From Alphaproteobacteria bacterium (lineage in GTDB: Bacteria; Pseudomonadota; Alphaproteobacteria; Ferrovibrionales; Ferrovibrionaceae), in assembly GCA_017307375.1 (NCBI GenBank), contig JAFKFH010000020.1, positions 62,001 through 126,000 on the forward strand: a stretch of DNA of 64,000 nucleotides, read 5' to 3'. Position 1 is the first letter of the stretch, and each line of letters opens with the position of its first letter. Shown here piece by piece: positions 2,342 through 58,923 of the stretch. The position numbers were made by a program, and so were the translations under genes. Below the pieces are notes generated by a model. The model worked only from the letters and a program-made list of their open reading frames with translations, ran no database searches and was not told the DNA's origin.

Positions 2342-3793
2342 AGCGAGCACGGCGCCCAGCCGGCGGGCGGCATCGGCGATCCCGGCCGGCTCGAAGGCGC
2401 CGAAGCCGAGCACCAGGCCGCTGAGGTCGCTCCGTTCCACCGCATAGCGCGACAACGGCACTGCGGTTATGCCGGCCGCCAGCGCCGCCGCGGCAACGGC
2501 ACGATCGTCGAAGCCGCCGGCCAGCCGGCAGGCCACGTCCAGGCCGGCCATGATCGGCGGCACGACCAGCCGCCCGGCCCACTCACGGCGGCCGGCAGCG
2601 GCGAAGGCAGCGGCACGCTCGGCATAGAGCATGCGCATGCGACGGACGTGGCGGGCGAAATGTCCTTCGGCCATGAATGCGGCAAGCGTGGCCTGCGTCG
2701 CCTGTGGCTGGTGCCGCGCGGTCAGCGACAAGGCGTCGGCAAAGTCCGGCGCCAGCGCCCGCGGCAGGACGGCGTAGGCGAGCCGAAGACCAGGAAACAT
2801 CAGCTTGGAGAACGTGCCGGCATGGATGACCCGATCGCCACCGTCCAGGCTTTTCAACGCCGGCAGCGGGCGATCGGCAAAACGGTGCTCGGCATCGTAA
2901 TCGTCGTCGAAGACATAGGCGCCGGCCACGCCCGCCCAGCGCAGCAGGGCCAGGCGGCGGTCGAGCGAAAGGACATGGCCGAGCGGCGCATGCCGTCCCG
3001 CCGTGAGATGGACGAGGCGCGCCTCCGGTGCCCGCACCATCCCGGCCGCAACGTCGAGTCCCTGGCCGTCGACCCCGACGGCCACAAGCTGCGCCCCGGC
3101 GGCCTGCAGCACCTGCCGCGCCGCGGGATAGCCGGGATCCTCGACCCACGCGGCATCGCCAGGCGCCAGGACCAGGCGGGCCACGAGGTCGAGGGCCTGC
3201 TGCACGCTGGCAACGATCGCCACCTGCCCGACATCGCATTCGACGCCGCGGGCAAGCGCCAGGTGATCCCGGATCGCGATCCGCAGCGGCAGATAGCCGA
3301 CGCCGTCGATCTCGCCCAGCAGCGCAGTGCCCAAGCGCCGTGCCTCGCGCCCGGCCAGCCGGGTCCACAGCGCCAGCGGAAACGCGGCGAGGTCGGGCAG
3401 GCTGGCGCGGAACGGGCGGACCGGCGCGGTCGCCCCGGCGAACGGGCTGCGGGCGAACCGCGCCGCGCATCCGGGCAGCGCAGCCGGCGGCGGTTCGCTC
3501 GCCGGGCGCACGGCCAACAGATCGTCGGGCAGGTCCCGGGCGACGAAGGTGCCTCGCCCGGTCGCGCCGACCACATAGCCCTCGGCGGCAAGCTGCTCGT
3601 AGGCGGCGACCACCGTGCCGCGCGCGACGCCCTGCTGGCGGGCAAGGTCGCGACTGGCCGGCAGGCGTGTCCCGGGCTTCAACCGGCCGCTGAGGATCGC
3701 CCGGCGCAGCGCTTCATGCAGCCAAGCCCCGCGCGCCATGCCCGGCGGCGGGCTGCCCAGGGCAAGAACGGCTTCGGCGGCGGCGCGACCCAT
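2297..3793 (-). CDS. MocR-type (GntR/aminotransferase) transcriptional regulator
   Basis: 498 residues. Residues about 22-88 form a GntR winged helix ('LHEALRRAILSGRLKPGTRL', 'GVARGTVVAAYEQL'). The rest is a fold-type-I aminotransferase domain with 'DDDYDAEHRF' near 296-305 and the PLP-binding lysine of 'GTFSKLMFPGLRLAY' at about K330. MocR proteins sense PLP or an amino substrate and usually control a divergent neighbour, here the SnoaL/AhpD pair. The usual 'SHQxPTG' loop is altered to 'AGRHAPLG', so ligand recognition may differ. The chosen ATG lies just before the helix-turn-helix; the open frame extends further upstream only as a shadow of the facing genes. Confidence 0.88.
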   Translation of the reverse strand: MGRAAAEAVLALGSPPPGMARGAWLHEALRRAILSGRLKPGTRLPASRDLARQQGVARGTVVAAYEQLAAEGYVVGATGRGTFVARDLPDDLLAVRPASEPPPAALPGCAARFARSPFAGATAPVRPFRASLPDLAAFPLALWTRLAGREARRLGTALLGEIDGVGYLPLRIAIRDHLALARGVECDVGQVAIVASVQQALDLVARLVLAPGDAAWVEDPGYPAARQVLQAAGAQLVAVGVDGQGLDVAAGMVRAPEARLVHLTAGRHAPLGHVLSLDRRLALLRWAGVAGAYVFDDDYDAEHRFADRPLPALKSLDGGDRVIHAGTFSKLMFPGLRLAYAVLPRALAPDFADALSLTARHQPQATQATLAAFMAEGHFARHVRRMRMLYAERAAAFAAAGRREWAGRLVVPPIMAGLDVACRLAGGFDDRAVAAAALAAGITAVPLSRYAVERSDLSGLVLGFGAFEPAGIADAARRLGAVLASAERQPADQPGCSD

Positions 3794-3802
3794 GCCCCAG
3801 TG

Positions 3803-3835
3803 TAAATGGACCAAGTCGATTCTGATAAATGGATC
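3803..3835. promoter_or_regulatory. Direct repeat TAAATGGAYC in the MocR divergent promoter
   Basis: Two copies of TAAATGGAYC, at 3803-3812 and 3826-3835, repeat in the same orientation 23 bp apart. MocR regulators such as GabR and PdxR are known to bind spaced direct repeats, so this is a candidate operator for the adjacent MocR gene. Binding is inferred. Confidence 0.45.
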
Positions 3836-3839
3836 TTCT

Positions 3840-3858
3840 GACTGATCCAGGATCAGTC
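3840..3858. promoter_or_regulatory. Perfect 19-bp palindrome between the MocR gene and the SnoaL-like gene
   Basis: GACTGATCCAGGATCAGTC is a perfect inverted repeat with a single central base. A one-base centre rules out a useful RNA hairpin, so a protein operator is more likely. It lies 35 bp before the ATG of the SnoaL-like gene and 47 bp from the MocR start, next to the TAAATGGAYC direct repeats. Confidence 0.5.
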
Positions 3859-3892
3859 GATGGTCGGGATCGCTCAGACCAGGAGAGGGACC

Positions 3893-4330
3893 ATGAACCA
3901 TCCGCTGCAACCGCTGCTGCACCGCCATCTGGCGGCCGAGAACGCCCATGATCTGCCGGGTACGCTGGCGACACTGCATCCCGACTGCCTGTTCGAGGAT
4001 GTCGCCACCGGCCAGACCTGGCATGGCCATGCAGGCGCCGCGGCCCATTACCTGCACTGGTGGAACGCGTTTGGCGTTACCGTCTCGCGCGAGGCGCAGG
4101 ACCGCTCCTTCTGGTGCGAGGACGGGTCCTGCGTCAGCCAGGCGACCTTTTCCGGCCGCCATGTCGGCGACTTCTTCGGCCTGGCGCCGACGGGGCGCGA
4201 CATCTCCTTCCGCTTCGCCGTCTTCATCGGCTTTCGCGACGGGCTGATGCTGAGCGAGCGCTTCTACTACGATCTGGCCGGCCTGACGCGCCAGCTCGGC
4301 GCGACGGGCCTGCCCGCCCTCGCCGCCTGA
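3893..4330 (+). CDS. SnoaL-like / NTF2-fold protein
   Basis: 145 residues; ATG preceded by GAGAGGGA. The sequence has the short NTF2/SnoaL cone layout: a first helix ('LHRHLAAENAHDL'), 'LHPDCLFEDVATGQTWHGH' typical of the pocket entrance, and strands ending 'FYYDLAGLTRQL'. Such proteins bind small hydrophobic ligands and act as cyclases, isomerases or hydrolases. It is divergent from the MocR regulator and followed 27 bp later by an AhpD-like gene, so both are probably under MocR control. The substrate is unknown. Confidence 0.75.
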   Translation: MNHPLQPLLHRHLAAENAHDLPGTLATLHPDCLFEDVATGQTWHGHAGAAAHYLHWWNAFGVTVSREAQDRSFWCEDGSCVSQATFSGRHVGDFFGLAPTGRDISFRFAVFIGFRDGLMLSERFYYDLAGLTRQLGATGLPALAA

Positions 4331-4357
4331 ACGCCGTCCCCGAACGCAGGAGCAACT

Positions 4358-4798
4358 ATGGAACAACGCCTCGATCTCGCCCGGACCGCCCCGGGCATCA
4401 TGACGACGATGCGCAAGCTGACCGCCCATGTCCATGACGGCCCGATCGAGCAGCGGCTGCTGGAACTGGTCATGGTCCGCGCCTCGCAGATCAATGGCTG
4501 CGCCTTCTGCATCGCCATGCATGTCCGCGCCGCCATCGAGGCCGGCGAAAATGCCGGCCGGCTTCACCTGCTGCCGGCCTGGCGCGAGGCACCGGGCTTT
4601 TCGCCGCGCGAGCGTGCGGCCCTGGCGTGGACCGAGGCGCTGACCAGGTTGGGCGAGCATGGCGTGCCCGATGAAGTCTATGCCGCAGCCGTGACCGAGT
4701 TCGGCGAGGCCGAGCTTGCCGAACTGTCGCTGGCCGTCGTCACCATCAACGGCTGGAACAGGTTGATGATCGCCTTTCGCGTGCCGCCGCGCGGTTAG
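4358..4798 (+). CDS. AhpD / carboxymuconolactone decarboxylase-like protein
   Basis: 146 residues. The all-helical CMD fold is indicated by 'LLELVMVRASQINGCAFCIAMH', which holds the AhpD-type Cys48-x-x-Cys51 pair and His55 used for peroxidase-linked redox chemistry, and by the later 'FTPRE'-like 'FSPRERAALAWTEAL'. Members remove peroxides or act as alkylhydroperoxidase partners. It follows the SnoaL-like gene in the same orientation. Its last 4 bp overlap the end of the convergent TPR gene. Confidence 0.85.
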   Translation: MEQRLDLARTAPGIMTTMRKLTAHVHDGPIEQRLLELVMVRASQINGCAFCIAMHVRAAIEAGENAGRLHLLPAWREAPGFSPRERAALAWTEALTRLGEHGVPDEVYAAAVTEFGEAELAELSLAVVTINGWNRLMIAFRVPPRG

Positions 4799-53975: not shown

Positions 53976-54710
53976 TCAGAAGGCGTAGCGCAGCGACAGC
54001 ACGACTTCGTTGGCGCGAAGATTGCCGCGCACCCCCGCGGTCGGGGCCTGGAACGTGCCGCCGGGCGTCAAGGTCACCTGGCTGGTTCCCGCCTTGGTCT
54101 CGATATCGCCAAGATCGACATAGCGATAGGCAAGGTCGGCCGACAGGTTCGGCAGAATCGCCCAAGCCAATCCCGCCCCGACATTCCAGGCGAAATTGGT
54201 GGTCGAGCCGCTGGGGTCGGTCTCACTGCCCGCGGAAGACAGGCTCGACGCCGACCAGCTTTGCTGGATCGCGCCCATCTTGTTCCAGGCCACGCCGATA
54301 CCGGCGTTGACGAACGGCCGGATCGGCCCCAGCGCGAACGGCAGGTCGACATAGCCGTTGGCCATCAGCGCCCATGACGTGACGTTGGCGCGATAGCTGG
54401 TGCCGATGACGTCGCTGCCCCGCCAGCGAAAGCCGCCGCGATAGCTGATCGTGGCGTCGGCACGCACGAGGTCGCTGAAGCGGTAGCCCGCCCCGGCCCC
54501 GAACACCGCGCTGTTGCCGAGGTCGTCGAACGAACCGGGCTGGCAGATCAGGCAACCGGGATTGCCTTCCCCGGCCTTGTCCTTGATCGCGGCATCGGTG
54601 GCCCAGCCCGCCCCCAGATCGCCGCGCAGATAGACCTGGGCACTGGCGGCACCGCTGCCGACAATGGTGACAAGCAAGGCGCCGATGCCGGCGGCAAGGA
54701 TGCTACGCAT
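53976..54710 (-). CDS. Outer-membrane beta-barrel protein
   Basis: 244 residues: signal peptide of about 24 residues ('GSGAASA-Q'), alternating-hydrophobic strands of an OmpA/Omp25-like 8-strand barrel ('VYLRGDLGAGWATDA', 'FGAGAGYRFSDLVRADATI', 'IRPFVNAGIGVAWNKMG', 'ADLAYRYVDLGD') and a C-terminal Phe as used for barrel assembly. A Cys pair ('GCLICQ') sits in an external loop. It starts 9 bp after the stop of the pepsin-like gene, so the two are one operon. Confidence 0.88.
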   Translation of the reverse strand: MRSILAAGIGALLVTIVGSGAASAQVYLRGDLGAGWATDAAIKDKAGEGNPGCLICQPGSFDDLGNSAVFGAGAGYRFSDLVRADATISYRGGFRWRGSDVIGTSYRANVTSWALMANGYVDLPFALGPIRPFVNAGIGVAWNKMGAIQQSWSASSLSSAGSETDPSGSTTNFAWNVGAGLAWAILPNLSADLAYRYVDLGDIETKAGTSQVTLTPGGTFQAPTAGVRGNLRANEVVLSLRYAF

Positions 54711-54719
54711 GATCCGTCC

Positions 54720-57650
54720 TTACTGCGCCGGGCGGGCGCCGAGATAGCCGTTGATGCCGTCCCACAGCATGTCGATGACCTGCAATGCGGGCGAGCCGAG
54801 ATTGGAGTTGCCGTAGTTGGGCGACGCGGTCAGCACCGAGACATTGCCGACGCCGGTCCACTCCAGCCCCGAGGTCAGCGGGACTGTCAGGTTGTTCAGG
54901 ATCGTCGTCTGCCCCTTGCCCCCGACCGCCGGGCCGGTCATGGTGACGACGAAGCTCTGCGGCGTGTTGATCGAATAAAGGCCCTGGTTGCCGCCGTGCG
55001 TCGGCGCGGTGACGACGCCCTGTGCGACCAGTTCGTTCAGCACAGCCTGCGAGCCGGTCGAGATCCGGATATTGGCCGCCCCCGAATCGAACAGCGTCGG
55101 CAGGGTCGAGATGGTCGAGCCGCCCGCCACCGAGAAAGTGGCCTGGGCCGTCGCATTGTTCCAGGCCAGCGGACACTGGTTGGAACCGCCGGGACCGACG
55201 CAGCCCGGCTGCAGCGGCATCGACGCCATCTGCACCTGCGGGAATGCGGCCCGGACGGCCGGCGTCAGCCCGGCGGTGACGGCGAGGTTCTTCAGCGACA
55301 GCGTGAAACCCGAGTTGTACGGCGCCGGCAGTTGCGCCAGCGGGCTGGAGATCACGCCGGTCATCGCGGGAACCGAGGCGGCCGTCGACTGCACCACCCC
55401 CATTGTGCCGGTGCGGCCGGTGAAGGCCTTGGCCGGTTCCTTGTCGGGATTGCAGGTCGGGTTCAGCGTCAGGTCGCAGGTCACCTGGGTGACCAGCCCG
55501 AACGGCAGGCCCTGCACCGTCACCCCGCCGATGGTAAAATCCGCGTAGGCGAGCACGGCGTTGTAGAGCACGCCGGACGAATAGCCCTGGCATATGCCGC
55601 GTGCATTGTTCGGGCAAGAGCCGGTCGGCTGGCTGGCCGCGACCGTGTAGGTCGCCCCGGCGGCATCCAGGATCGTCTTGGACAGGAACATGCCGCTGGA
55701 GCCGAGGTCGAAGGTGACGATCTGCGGCTGACCGCCGCCGACCGTCACCTGCACCATATTGCCCCAGGTGAAGACGTCGGCCGGCGCCATGTTCGGTTCG
55801 AACAAGACCGGGATCGCGACGCTGGGCGGCAGTGCCGGCGCGGTCGAATAGCGCGAGAACGCGACCTGCAGGGCACCGATGTTCATCACGATGCCGCCGC
55901 CGGCGGTCGGCAAGATGCTGCCGGCGATGTTGTTGGGCGCGCAGGTGGTGGCGCCGTTCTGCAGCGTGCAGACATAGAACTGGCCGTCGACCTGGCCCGA
56001 TGACTGCACCGTTCCCGTATAGTAGATCCAGTTCGGCCGATAGGGCGGCGCCGAGGTCGCGGGCTGCTGCGGGCTGGGCGTGGCGCCGACGACGACCGCA
56101 GTCACGGCATTGCCCTGCACGTCGGCGAACAGGCCCAGCGGGACAAAGTCGCCGGGCTGGTTCCATGCCGCCTCGGGGTAGGCCGCCCACCACCAGCCGG
56201 CGGCCGGCGCGACTGTCGAGGCGACGGCGATCGCACTGCCGGTGCCGGCGGGAATCCGCGTCGGCGCCTCGTTCACCGACATCGTCCTGGTGCCGGTCGT
56301 GGTGATCGGGATGCCGCCCTGGCCGGTGACCGTGCCCGAATCGTTGACCCCGGCCGAGGCCGCGAAGACCGAATTGTCGTAGGGGCCGAACGAATAGGCG
56401 AGCAGCCCGACACTGGAGAACGGCATCGGGCCGCCGTCAGGGTCGAAGGCGTTGGTGCCGCCGGTCGCGGGCTGGAAATAGGGTTTCCAGAGATAGGGAT
56501 AGTCGAGGCTGGCGCTGGGGATGCCGGACGACGGCGCCCGCGTGGTCGAAACCCAGGATTGGCGCAAGGTCGCGTTGGTCGCCTGCGACAGCAGCGGCGG
56601 CAGGACCGAGCTGTCGGGCAGCGCCACGGCGGGCGAGACCGTCGCCTCCCCGTAGTACCAGACCGGCACGCCCAGGCTGTCGTAGCTGAACAGCCCGGTC
56701 GCCACCATGCCCTGCGCGGTGCGCTGGACGCCGTAGAAGTGATCGGTCCGCCGCGCGCCCGGCCCGTAGAGACCCGCATAGGCCGATTGCTGGGCCGCCG
56801 GCACGCCGCCATAGGCGAAGAAATAGACATTCCCGCTGGTGAAGGTTGCGGCCGAAAATCCGTCGCGGCTGGTAATGCCCCGGCTGTTGCCGGCGGCGCC
56901 GGCCATGGCCACCACCGGGCCGTTCTGTCCGGCCAGTCCAGAGGCAAGATATTGGGCATTGGGCCTGACCACCGCGACCTGGCCGGTACCGGGCGCGCCG
57001 CTCCAGCCCGGGCACAGCGCCGCATTGGCCGTATAGCTCAGTGCCTGGCCCCCGGCATTGGCCGCGGTCTTGGCAAGGACGCCGCTGTAATAGGCCTGTA
57101 CGCAGGACGGCACGTCGTAGGGATTGGCCGACGCCGCCACGACCAGGTAGCCGGCATTGGCCCAGGCCTGGGCCGCGGCCAGCGCCGGGCGGTTCTGCGA
57201 ATTGCCCAGCACCGTCCAGCCGGGCCGCGGCGCCGCCGCGGTCAGGGCCGGCACCGCGACCGGGTTCTGCGCCGCCTGGTTCCACAGCCAGACGAACTGC
57301 GCATTCTCCAGCCCCTGCTGGGCCGCCTGCGGCGGTCGCAGCAGGTAGATGCCCAGTTGCTGGGCCGCGGCGGCGGCAAAGCTGCCGCCATGCGTCGTCG
57401 TGGCCACGGCGGTCGCACCGACGGCGCGATCGGGTGTGCCGGCCAGGAAATTCACATGCTGACCGGCCAGCCATTTGCCGGCGGGGTCCATCGAATCGAT
57501 CAGGCTGCAGGTCGCCGCGGCCGTGCCGGACAGGCCGCCGCAATTGACCAGGAAGTCGCTGGCCGGCGGGGGGCCGGGCACCCGCGCCTCGCTCCCGACC
57601 GCCGCCACCAGGGCCAGCATGACTGCCCCGACCATCACCGATCCACGCAT
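54720..57650 (-). CDS. Large secreted protein with a pepsin-like aspartic protease fold
   Basis: 976 residues with a signal peptide (about 1-22). The N-terminal 600 residues are Ala/Gly/Ser-rich with no recognised domain. The C-terminal third (about 630-976) follows pepsin family A1: first-lobe 'VTFDLGSSGMFLSK' (Asp648), 'ADFTIGGVTVQGLPFGLVTQV', second-lobe 'LPTLFDSGAANIRI' (Asp855), and a terminal 'DMLWDGINGYLGARP' like the eukaryotic end strand. The first loop reads Asp-Leu-Gly instead of Asp-Thr-Gly, so activity is uncertain. Operon with an outer-membrane barrel gene. Confidence 0.8.
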   Translation of the reverse strand: MRGSVMVGAVMLALVAAVGSEARVPGPPPASDFLVNCGGLSGTAAATCSLIDSMDPAGKWLAGQHVNFLAGTPDRAVGATAVATTTHGGSFAAAAAQQLGIYLLRPPQAAQQGLENAQFVWLWNQAAQNPVAVPALTAAAPRPGWTVLGNSQNRPALAAAQAWANAGYLVVAASANPYDVPSCVQAYYSGVLAKTAANAGGQALSYTANAALCPGWSGAPGTGQVAVVRPNAQYLASGLAGQNGPVVAMAGAAGNSRGITSRDGFSAATFTSGNVYFFAYGGVPAAQQSAYAGLYGPGARRTDHFYGVQRTAQGMVATGLFSYDSLGVPVWYYGEATVSPAVALPDSSVLPPLLSQATNATLRQSWVSTTRAPSSGIPSASLDYPYLWKPYFQPATGGTNAFDPDGGPMPFSSVGLLAYSFGPYDNSVFAASAGVNDSGTVTGQGGIPITTTGTRTMSVNEAPTRIPAGTGSAIAVASTVAPAAGWWWAAYPEAAWNQPGDFVPLGLFADVQGNAVTAVVVGATPSPQQPATSAPPYRPNWIYYTGTVQSSGQVDGQFYVCTLQNGATTCAPNNIAGSILPTAGGGIVMNIGALQVAFSRYSTAPALPPSVAIPVLFEPNMAPADVFTWGNMVQVTVGGGQPQIVTFDLGSSGMFLSKTILDAAGATYTVAASQPTGSCPNNARGICQGYSSGVLYNAVLAYADFTIGGVTVQGLPFGLVTQVTCDLTLNPTCNPDKEPAKAFTGRTGTMGVVQSTAASVPAMTGVISSPLAQLPAPYNSGFTLSLKNLAVTAGLTPAVRAAFPQVQMASMPLQPGCVGPGGSNQCPLAWNNATAQATFSVAGGSTISTLPTLFDSGAANIRISTGSQAVLNELVAQGVVTAPTHGGNQGLYSINTPQSFVVTMTGPAVGGKGQTTILNNLTVPLTSGLEWTGVGNVSVLTASPNYGNSNLGSPALQVIDMLWDGINGYLGARPAQ

Positions 57651-57726: not shown

Positions 57727-58923
57727 TCAACCCCGAAAGGTCGGATCGGGCACTGGTCCGGTGTAACGCGCCCGCGGCCGGATCAGCCCGCCGTCGCGCG
57801 CCTGCTCGAAGGCATGGGCGATCCAGCCGATGGTGCGGCCGACCGCGAACAGCAGGAACGGTGCCTCCGGCCCCAGCCCGAGCGTGCGGCCGACCGCGAC
57901 CAGCGCCGCATCGACATTGGCGGGCGCGTCGGTGACCCGCTCGCCCGCCGCGATGGCGGCAAGGATCGGCGCGGCACGCTCGGCCCCCAGCTCGTTCAGG
58001 CGGCCCAGCAGATAGGCGGCGCGCGGATCGCCCTCGGGATAGAGGGGATGGCTGAAACCCGGAATGATCTCGCCGCGCCGGAGCCGCGCGGCCAGGGCGG
58101 GCTCGGGCCCGCCGGCCTGGTCGATCTCGTCGAACAGCGCCTGGACGCGCCAGGTCATGCCGCCATGGCGCGGCCCCTGCAGCGCGGCGAGGCCGGCCGA
58201 CAGCACCGCGTGCAGCGACGCGCCGGTCGAGGCCACGACCCGCGCGGCGAAGGACGAGGCATTCAGCTCGTGATCGGCCGTCAGGATCAGCGCGGCAGCC
58301 AGGATGCGTTCGGCCGCCGCCCCCTGCGCCCGCAGCCCCTGCGCCATCACCGCCGCCAGCGGCCGGTCGTCCGGCGCGGTGCCCGCGGCCCAGGCCGCGA
58401 CATGGCGCAGCAGGCGCCCGGCGGTCGCCGGGCTGGGGCCCGCCAGCCCCGACAGGTCCTCGGCAGCCGCCAGCGGCAGCAGCGCCATCATCCGTTCGGG
58501 CCCCGGCAGATCGGCAAGTTCGGCGCGCCACCGCCGCAGGGTGCCCGATTCGGCGACGCTGCCCGCGGGGAACGCGGCTTCGACCGGGCAGTCCCACAAC
58601 AGCGCCGCCACCGCCTCGACGCTGCCGGCGGCGGCGAGTCCGGCGGCATCGCGGCCGCGATAGGACAAGCGGCCTTCGGAAATCGACGTCAGCGCCGAAT
58701 CGAGCACCGGCATGCCCCAGTCGAGCGCCTGGCGCGCCCCGTCGGGGGCCCGCCCCTTGCGCTGCTTCAGTACGTCGAGATCGGCGCGGCGGTAGCGCCG
58801 GGTACGTCCGTCGGGCCCGGGTTCGGAGCGCAGTTGCCCGCGGCTGACATAGGCGTAGAGCGACGCCGGCGCGACACCGAGATAGGCGGCGGCCTCGGCG
58901 GCCGAAAGCAGGGTCTTCGACAT
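57727..58923 (-). CDS. Citrate synthase with N-terminal helix-turn-helix domain
   Basis: 398 residues; an ATG nine bp upstream is an alternative start. Residues about 5-55 are a MerR/excisionase-type helix-turn-helix ('LLSAAEAAAYLGVAPASLYAYVSRGQL'). The rest is citrate synthase: 'TADHELNASSFAARVVAST', 'PRHGG', 'GFSHPLYPEGDPRA' (His kept, usual Arg-Val replaced by Pro-Leu), 'ANVDAAL' (Asp kept) and 'RARYTGP'. Either an enzyme that senses its own state or a repressor using the synthase fold. Divergent from the second citrate synthase gene. Confidence 0.9.
   Translation of the reverse strand: MSKTLLSAAEAAAYLGVAPASLYAYVSRGQLRSEPGPDGRTRRYRRADLDVLKQRKGRAPDGARQALDWGMPVLDSALTSISEGRLSYRGRDAAGLAAAGSVEAVAALLWDCPVEAAFPAGSVAESGTLRRWRAELADLPGPERMMALLPLAAAEDLSGLAGPSPATAGRLLRHVAAWAAGTAPDDRPLAAVMAQGLRAQGAAAERILAAALILTADHELNASSFAARVVASTGASLHAVLSAGLAALQGPRHGGMTWRVQALFDEIDQAGGPEPALAARLRRGEIIPGFSHPLYPEGDPRAAYLLGRLNELGAERAAPILAAIAAGERVTDAPANVDAALVAVGRTLGLGPEAPFLLFAVGRTIGWIAHAFEQARDGGLIRPRARYTGPVPDPTFRG

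Follow-up and report, generated by a model that had tools for sequence, protein, structure and literature searches.

The 976-aa protein encoded on the minus strand of the window (the whole 64,000-nucleotide stretch of DNA that was analysed) carries a C-terminal domain akin to the pepsins of family A1, and we put at about one half the probability that it is an exported envelope protein with a competent or weakened aspartic protease domain. From its N-terminus onwards it would comprise a signal peptide, a catalytically dead papain-fold (Tse1-like) domain, a middle region not described before and, last, an A1-like aspartic peptidase domain of two lobes (Table 1). D648 and D855 would form the usual dyad, activate water and cut a peptide held beneath the Tyr690 flap. 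Leu649 would take away one of the two 'fireman's grip' side-chain hydroxyls, Ser856 supplying the other, and in a single-chain enzyme this may give a looser centre, with activity lowered rather than abolished. We speculate that the dead N-terminal domain binds a cell-wall or envelope peptide and thereby positions the protease.

The reading frame and the motif positions given in the preliminary description proved exact (FDLGSSG at 647 with Asp648, IGGVTVQ at 707, LFDSGA at 853 with Asp855 and DGINGYLG at 964). Export, which that description raised as a possibility, is in keeping with a leader readable as a signal peptide, MRGSVMVGAVMLALVAAVGSEA followed by RV, and the leader of the paralog reads as similar in kind, ending in PSWA ahead of QV. 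The protein is likely an envelope protein. A consensus search for a sigma-70-type promoter returned none, a negative of little weight for this organism. Downstream, an outer-membrane beta-barrel gene begins 9 bp past the stop codon on the same strand (junction TAA-GGACGGATC-ATG, with GGACGG ahead of the start), which suggests one transcript, and the two genes are likely co-transcribed. Elsewhere in the window, between positions 57727 and 60081, two citrate-synthase-like genes lie apparently back to back on opposite strands: the minus-strand gene ends at 57727 and its protein has a helix-turn-helix-like start (SAAEAAAYLGVAPASLYAYVSRGQL), while the plus-strand gene runs from 58993 and matches PF00285 at 9e-91.

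Table 1. Features of the 976-aa gene and of its downstream neighbour, in window coordinates.
Feature	Position	Strand	Basis or remark
Complete ORF	54720..57650	-	976 aa, ATG to TAA; paralog matches full length, 48% identity
Signal peptide, residues 1-22	57585..57650	-	By eye: basic residues, then a hydrophobic stretch, then S-E-A ahead of the cleavage site
N-terminal papain-fold (Tse1-like) domain, residues 37-290, without its catalytic pair	56781..57542	-	Matches stand-alone exported proteins
Gly88 in place of the nucleophile Cys (relatives HTHCSAF, paralog Ala)	57387..57389	-	Alignment
Gln224 in place of the His (relatives GHI, paralog still His)	56979..56981	-	Alignment
Middle region, residues 300-594	55869..56753	-	Conserved in paralog
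C-terminal A1-like (pepsin-type) domain, residues 595-976	54723..55868	-	Profile comparisons
First active-site loop, D648-L649-G650 (GAC CTC GGC)	55701..55709	-	Aligned to DTG/DSG of 12 relatives
Candidate flap tyrosine, Tyr690 in Y-S-S-G (pepsin Tyr75)	55581..55583	-	Alignment shifts by one residue among relatives
T-M-G (749-751), first hydrophobic-hydrophobic-Gly psi-loop element	55398..55406	-	MMG in most relatives
Second active-site loop, D855-S-G	55080..55088	-	Asp invariant in 14/14 family members
N-L-G (950-952), second psi-loop element	54795..54803	-	N-T-G/N-S-G in most relatives; ILG in pepsin
Outer-membrane beta-barrel gene (OMP_b-brl), downstream	53976..54710	-	PF13505, 1.8e-15

Searched against Pfam, the window protein reached no family at its cut-off, its best match being a weak one to Asp_protease_2 (E 0.13), and it gave no match to PE-PGRS_C (PF20729), an aspartyl peptidase-like family. 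The paralog did match PF20729, at 3.5e-5 and 23.7 bits, under the gathering cut-off of 33 bits, and a two-sequence profile of both proteins aligned to rhizopuspepsin around Asp32 (E 0.03). A family was collected by a PF20729 search of proteobacteria and then by searches with the members found, to which three plasmid members and one neighbour gene of the Azospirillum match were added; its members are mostly ~340-420 aa long, most have readable leaders, and their loops are of the DTG/DTG type. Compared with eight independently aligned homologues bearing canonical motifs, the window protein and its paralog scored 77.9 (hhalign 96.7%), the best of 100 column shuffles reaching 23.5 and the reversed control ~16. 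With 12 members the score rose to 83.8 over 292 columns (97.2%), against a maximum of 22.9 in 100 shuffles. Profile alignment of the pair with the family sets DLG and DSG against the two D-T-G loops. A 12-row family profile, two rows of which are the window pair, in turn matched candidapepsin-3 end to end over residues 2-320 (E 3e-6); its further matches, among them gastricsin, pepsin, PE_PGRS16 and renin, were nearly all A1 pepsins, and an earlier family profile had also retrieved PE_PGRS16.

Since the domain is kept in a 48% identical paralog, which matches PE-PGRS_C under the cut-off, and since the pair scores far above its shuffles, it stands beyond chance. Together, the pair-to-family scores and the A1 pepsins matched by the family profile make kinship to A1 (pepsin, clan AA) well supported at the level of sequence. 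The pepsin-type order of elements that had been read earlier is thereby borne out, and the A1 profile search then proposed as a check reaches candidapepsin-3 by way of the family profile. From this kinship we infer a two-lobed geometry for residues 595-976; an AlphaFold2 model from the single sequence had a mean pLDDT of 34. As MEROPS defines A1, sequence kinship extends across both lobes, and the two catalytic Asp are present, the columns of D648 and D855 being invariant in 14/14 members; the Asp-Thr/Ser-Gly rule holds for the DSG of loop 2 and fails for the DLG of loop 1. Because of that first loop we file the domain as an A1-like variant and not as a canonical A1 peptidase.

Both Asp, the serine of D-x-G-S, the candidate flap Tyr and the psi-loop glycines are kept in the window protein, with T-M-G and N-L-G sitting at the psi-loop positions and hydrophobic in part only. 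Loop 1 reads DTG in 11 of the 14 members, DSG in one and DLG in two, namely the window protein and its paralog, so that the D-L-G loop singled out in the preliminary description is confirmed and shared by the paralog, as against DTG or DSG in 12 relatives. Loop 2 is D-T/S-G in 13 members and DIG in the third A1-like protein of the window's genome. A tree joins the DLG pair to a DTG/DTG protein of Azospirillum (WP_012977915) with support 0.97, which makes Leu at 649 a derived state. A one-base sequencing error behind DLG was considered and rejected: the Leu649 codon is CTC in both window protein and paralog, two base changes from a Thr codon (ACN), and we therefore take DLG as genuine. Within the literature searched, no A1 enzyme with DLG came up. 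Around D648 the paralogs are identical at 11/11 residues (top 0.5% of the C-terminal part), around D855 at 8/11 (top 11%), and at the lost Cys site of the N-terminal domain at 4/11. An identity peak at D648 alongside a dead Cys site that has drifted indicates that the Asp centre is still constrained, and this argues that it remains in use, by catalysis or by binding.

Ahead of this domain the preliminary description had counted 600 uncharacterised residues, a wording that still fits ~295 of them, which are without known relative, and no longer fits residues 37-290, a Tse1-like domain lacking Cys and His. The latter have matches among exported proteins, ~210-236 aa long and standing alone, from the window's own genome (L003), Pantoea and Caballeronia, which bear HTHCSAF-type and GHI motifs. 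A joint profile aligned to the peptidoglycan amidase Tse1 at E 0.007, spanning Cys and His, a fold kinship drawn from the profile alone. The catalytic Cys and His of an NlpC/P60-like or Tse1-like cysteine amidase are both missing from residues 37-290, and with Gly88 and Gln224 in their places the domain is almost certainly no longer a cysteine peptidase, judging by alignment. An IMG/VR contig filed as viral also encodes a protein related to these stand-alone Tse1-like ones (L026:5001-5570). For residues 300-594, a search of 200 genomes matched the window's own genome alone and found no relatives beyond the pair. The idea that this region is a two-copy repeat was unsupported, its halves giving hhalign 9%.

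Both options left by the preliminary description, a protease or a binding protein, are live, given that the Asp pair is kept and loop 1 lacks Thr/Ser. As a pseudoprotease, the protein would use the A1 fold to bind peptide or polysaccharide, and the entire chain would serve, together with the outer-membrane barrel encoded downstream, as a scaffold or receptor in the envelope. TAXI and pregnancy-associated glycoproteins are examples of an A1 fold retained for binding. We regard such a role as a strong contender, if short of an even chance: the loop-1 Thr/Ser is replaced only in the window pair among the 14 relatives, the change is derived beside a nearest relative in the tree that is DTG/DTG, and residues 37-290 have themselves gone catalytically dead, so that this architecture has seen one loss of catalysis before. 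It has to contend with the retention of both catalytic Asp, unlike in the many A1 pseudoenzymes that have lost one, and with a D648 loop that is the most conserved stretch between the paralogs while the dead Cys site drifted.

Protease activity, in turn, is favoured by Asp columns that align with those of the family, by the 11/11 identity surrounding D648 and by the precedent that PecA provides for exported bacterial A1 activity. Counting against it are the roles assigned to the grip residues, since Thr33 and Thr216 of pepsin each use their side chain for two hydrogen bonds with the loop facing them (PMC11313796), and the T/S of retroviral proteases is described as indispensable for the dimer to form and be stable (PMC7072860); the less exceptional surroundings of D855 and the low pLDDT of the single-sequence model weigh on the same side. 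A single-chain protein needs no grip to dimerise, and for this reason we judge it slightly more probable that activity is retained, perhaps in weaker form, than that the protein only binds. That DLG and DSG arose by chance in an unrelated beta-rich exported protein with no pepsin-like domain is very improbable, for although the window protein reaches no Pfam family cut-off and its AlphaFold2 model is unusable, a profile score of 84 where shuffles reach 23 at most, the PE-PGRS_C match of the paralog and the almost exclusive retrieval of A1 pepsins by the family profile all speak for the domain.

On present evidence the full-length protein appears to be very narrowly distributed. The window's 7.54 Mb genome holds one full-length paralog, in which DLGSSG and LFDSGA are also present; no relative of the whole protein came from genome contigs, from viral contigs or from those genomes of its order, class and phylum that were searched, matches to the N-terminal domain aside, and a plasmid search with the whole protein likewise matched that domain only. 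The genome's third A1-like protein, exported and 987 aa long (L017:4336-7299, contig C5), has DTG/DIG loops, the mirror case of DLG/DSG. N-terminal to its A1-like domain lies a sub-threshold NlpC/P60 match (E 0.006) in which D-C-S-N and S-H-V motifs are present. A single genome thus holds two fusions of a papain fold with a pepsin-like domain that look independent of each other, and this favours a setting in the envelope or cell wall. Tentatively, and with rather less than even confidence, we propose a functional pepsin-type protease, bacterial and exported, that does without the Thr/Ser hydroxyl on one side (DLG/DSG), accompanied in the same genome by a mirror DTG/DIG variant fused to an intact NlpC/P60-like domain; the papain-fold cell-wall plus pepsin-type fusion may then be a recurrent envelope architecture.

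Pepsin- and retropepsin-type proteases are defined in part by the Thr or Ser that follows each of their catalytic Asp. With DLG conserved in a natural bacterial protein of one chain, and with DTG relatives to set beside it, the role of the hydroxyl, in catalysis or in holding the halves together, can be tested directly. The exported bacterial pepsin-like family itself has been little noticed and exceeds in size the handful of bacterial A1 examples that are normally quoted.

Among known systems, Tse1 and the stand-alone HTHCSAF...GHI proteins resemble residues 37-290, from which they differ by keeping the Cys and His that Gly88 and Gln224 replace in the window protein. Shewasins, named in the preliminary description as an example of bacterial A1 proteases, are bacterial pepsin homologues too, but they are described as cytoplasmic and without signal peptide (PMC4814920), which sets the exported 976-aa protein apart; it sits instead with an exported proteobacterial family nearer PE-PGRS_C. 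DUF3443 (PF11925), the other family suggested at the outset, is likewise exported or lipoprotein with a pepsin-like DTG...DSG order. The proposed profile search did not place the protein there: only the first lobe of DUF3443 proteins aligns with the window pair (84 columns, hhalign 50%), and membership was rejected on the Pfam gathering cut-off (25 bits), the window protein having no match. A DUF3443 family search of the window's own genome found none, and DUF3443 goes unmentioned in the papers searched. The DUF3443 proteins L022, L023 and L024 have the DTG...DSG order and a pepsin-like look, and a weak DUF3443 match (E 4e-4) lies in a 4118-aa open frame (L025, G514:C33:30355-30594).

With candidapepsin, gastricsin and pepsin (MEROPS A1) the domain shares the order D-x-G, flap, hhG, D-S-G and (h)hG, and it departs from them in the DLG of loop 1 and in having N-L-G for its second psi-loop element; no propeptide of the pepsin kind was identified in the 976-aa protein. 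The best-studied exported bacterial relatives are PecA and PE_PGRS16, in which, as here, an exported A1-like domain stands C-terminal in a long multidomain protein. PecA is an active exported mycobacterial surface protease with DTG/DSG loops (PMC6819658), and in PE-PGRS_C proteins the PE and PGRS regions take the place of the papain-fold and middle regions. Closest in sequence is the uncurated exported proteobacterial A1-like family (L007, L008, L010, L011, L012, L014 and L015), made up of Methylobacterium, Xanthomonas and Azospirillum plasmid proteins that are 'hypothetical' or unannotated. Azospirillum sp. B510 plasmid pAB510d carries two such A1-like genes in tandem, annotated hypothetical (L030:2057-3142 and 3184-4365), the second of which is the nearest DTG/DTG relative of the window pair. 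The entire C-terminal domain aligns with this family, including both Asp, the psi-loop glycines, a conserved Cys pair past the flap region and the final D..G.G element, whereas the family has DTG in loop 1 (DSG once) and its mostly ~340-420-aa members are without the N-terminal and middle regions of the window protein.
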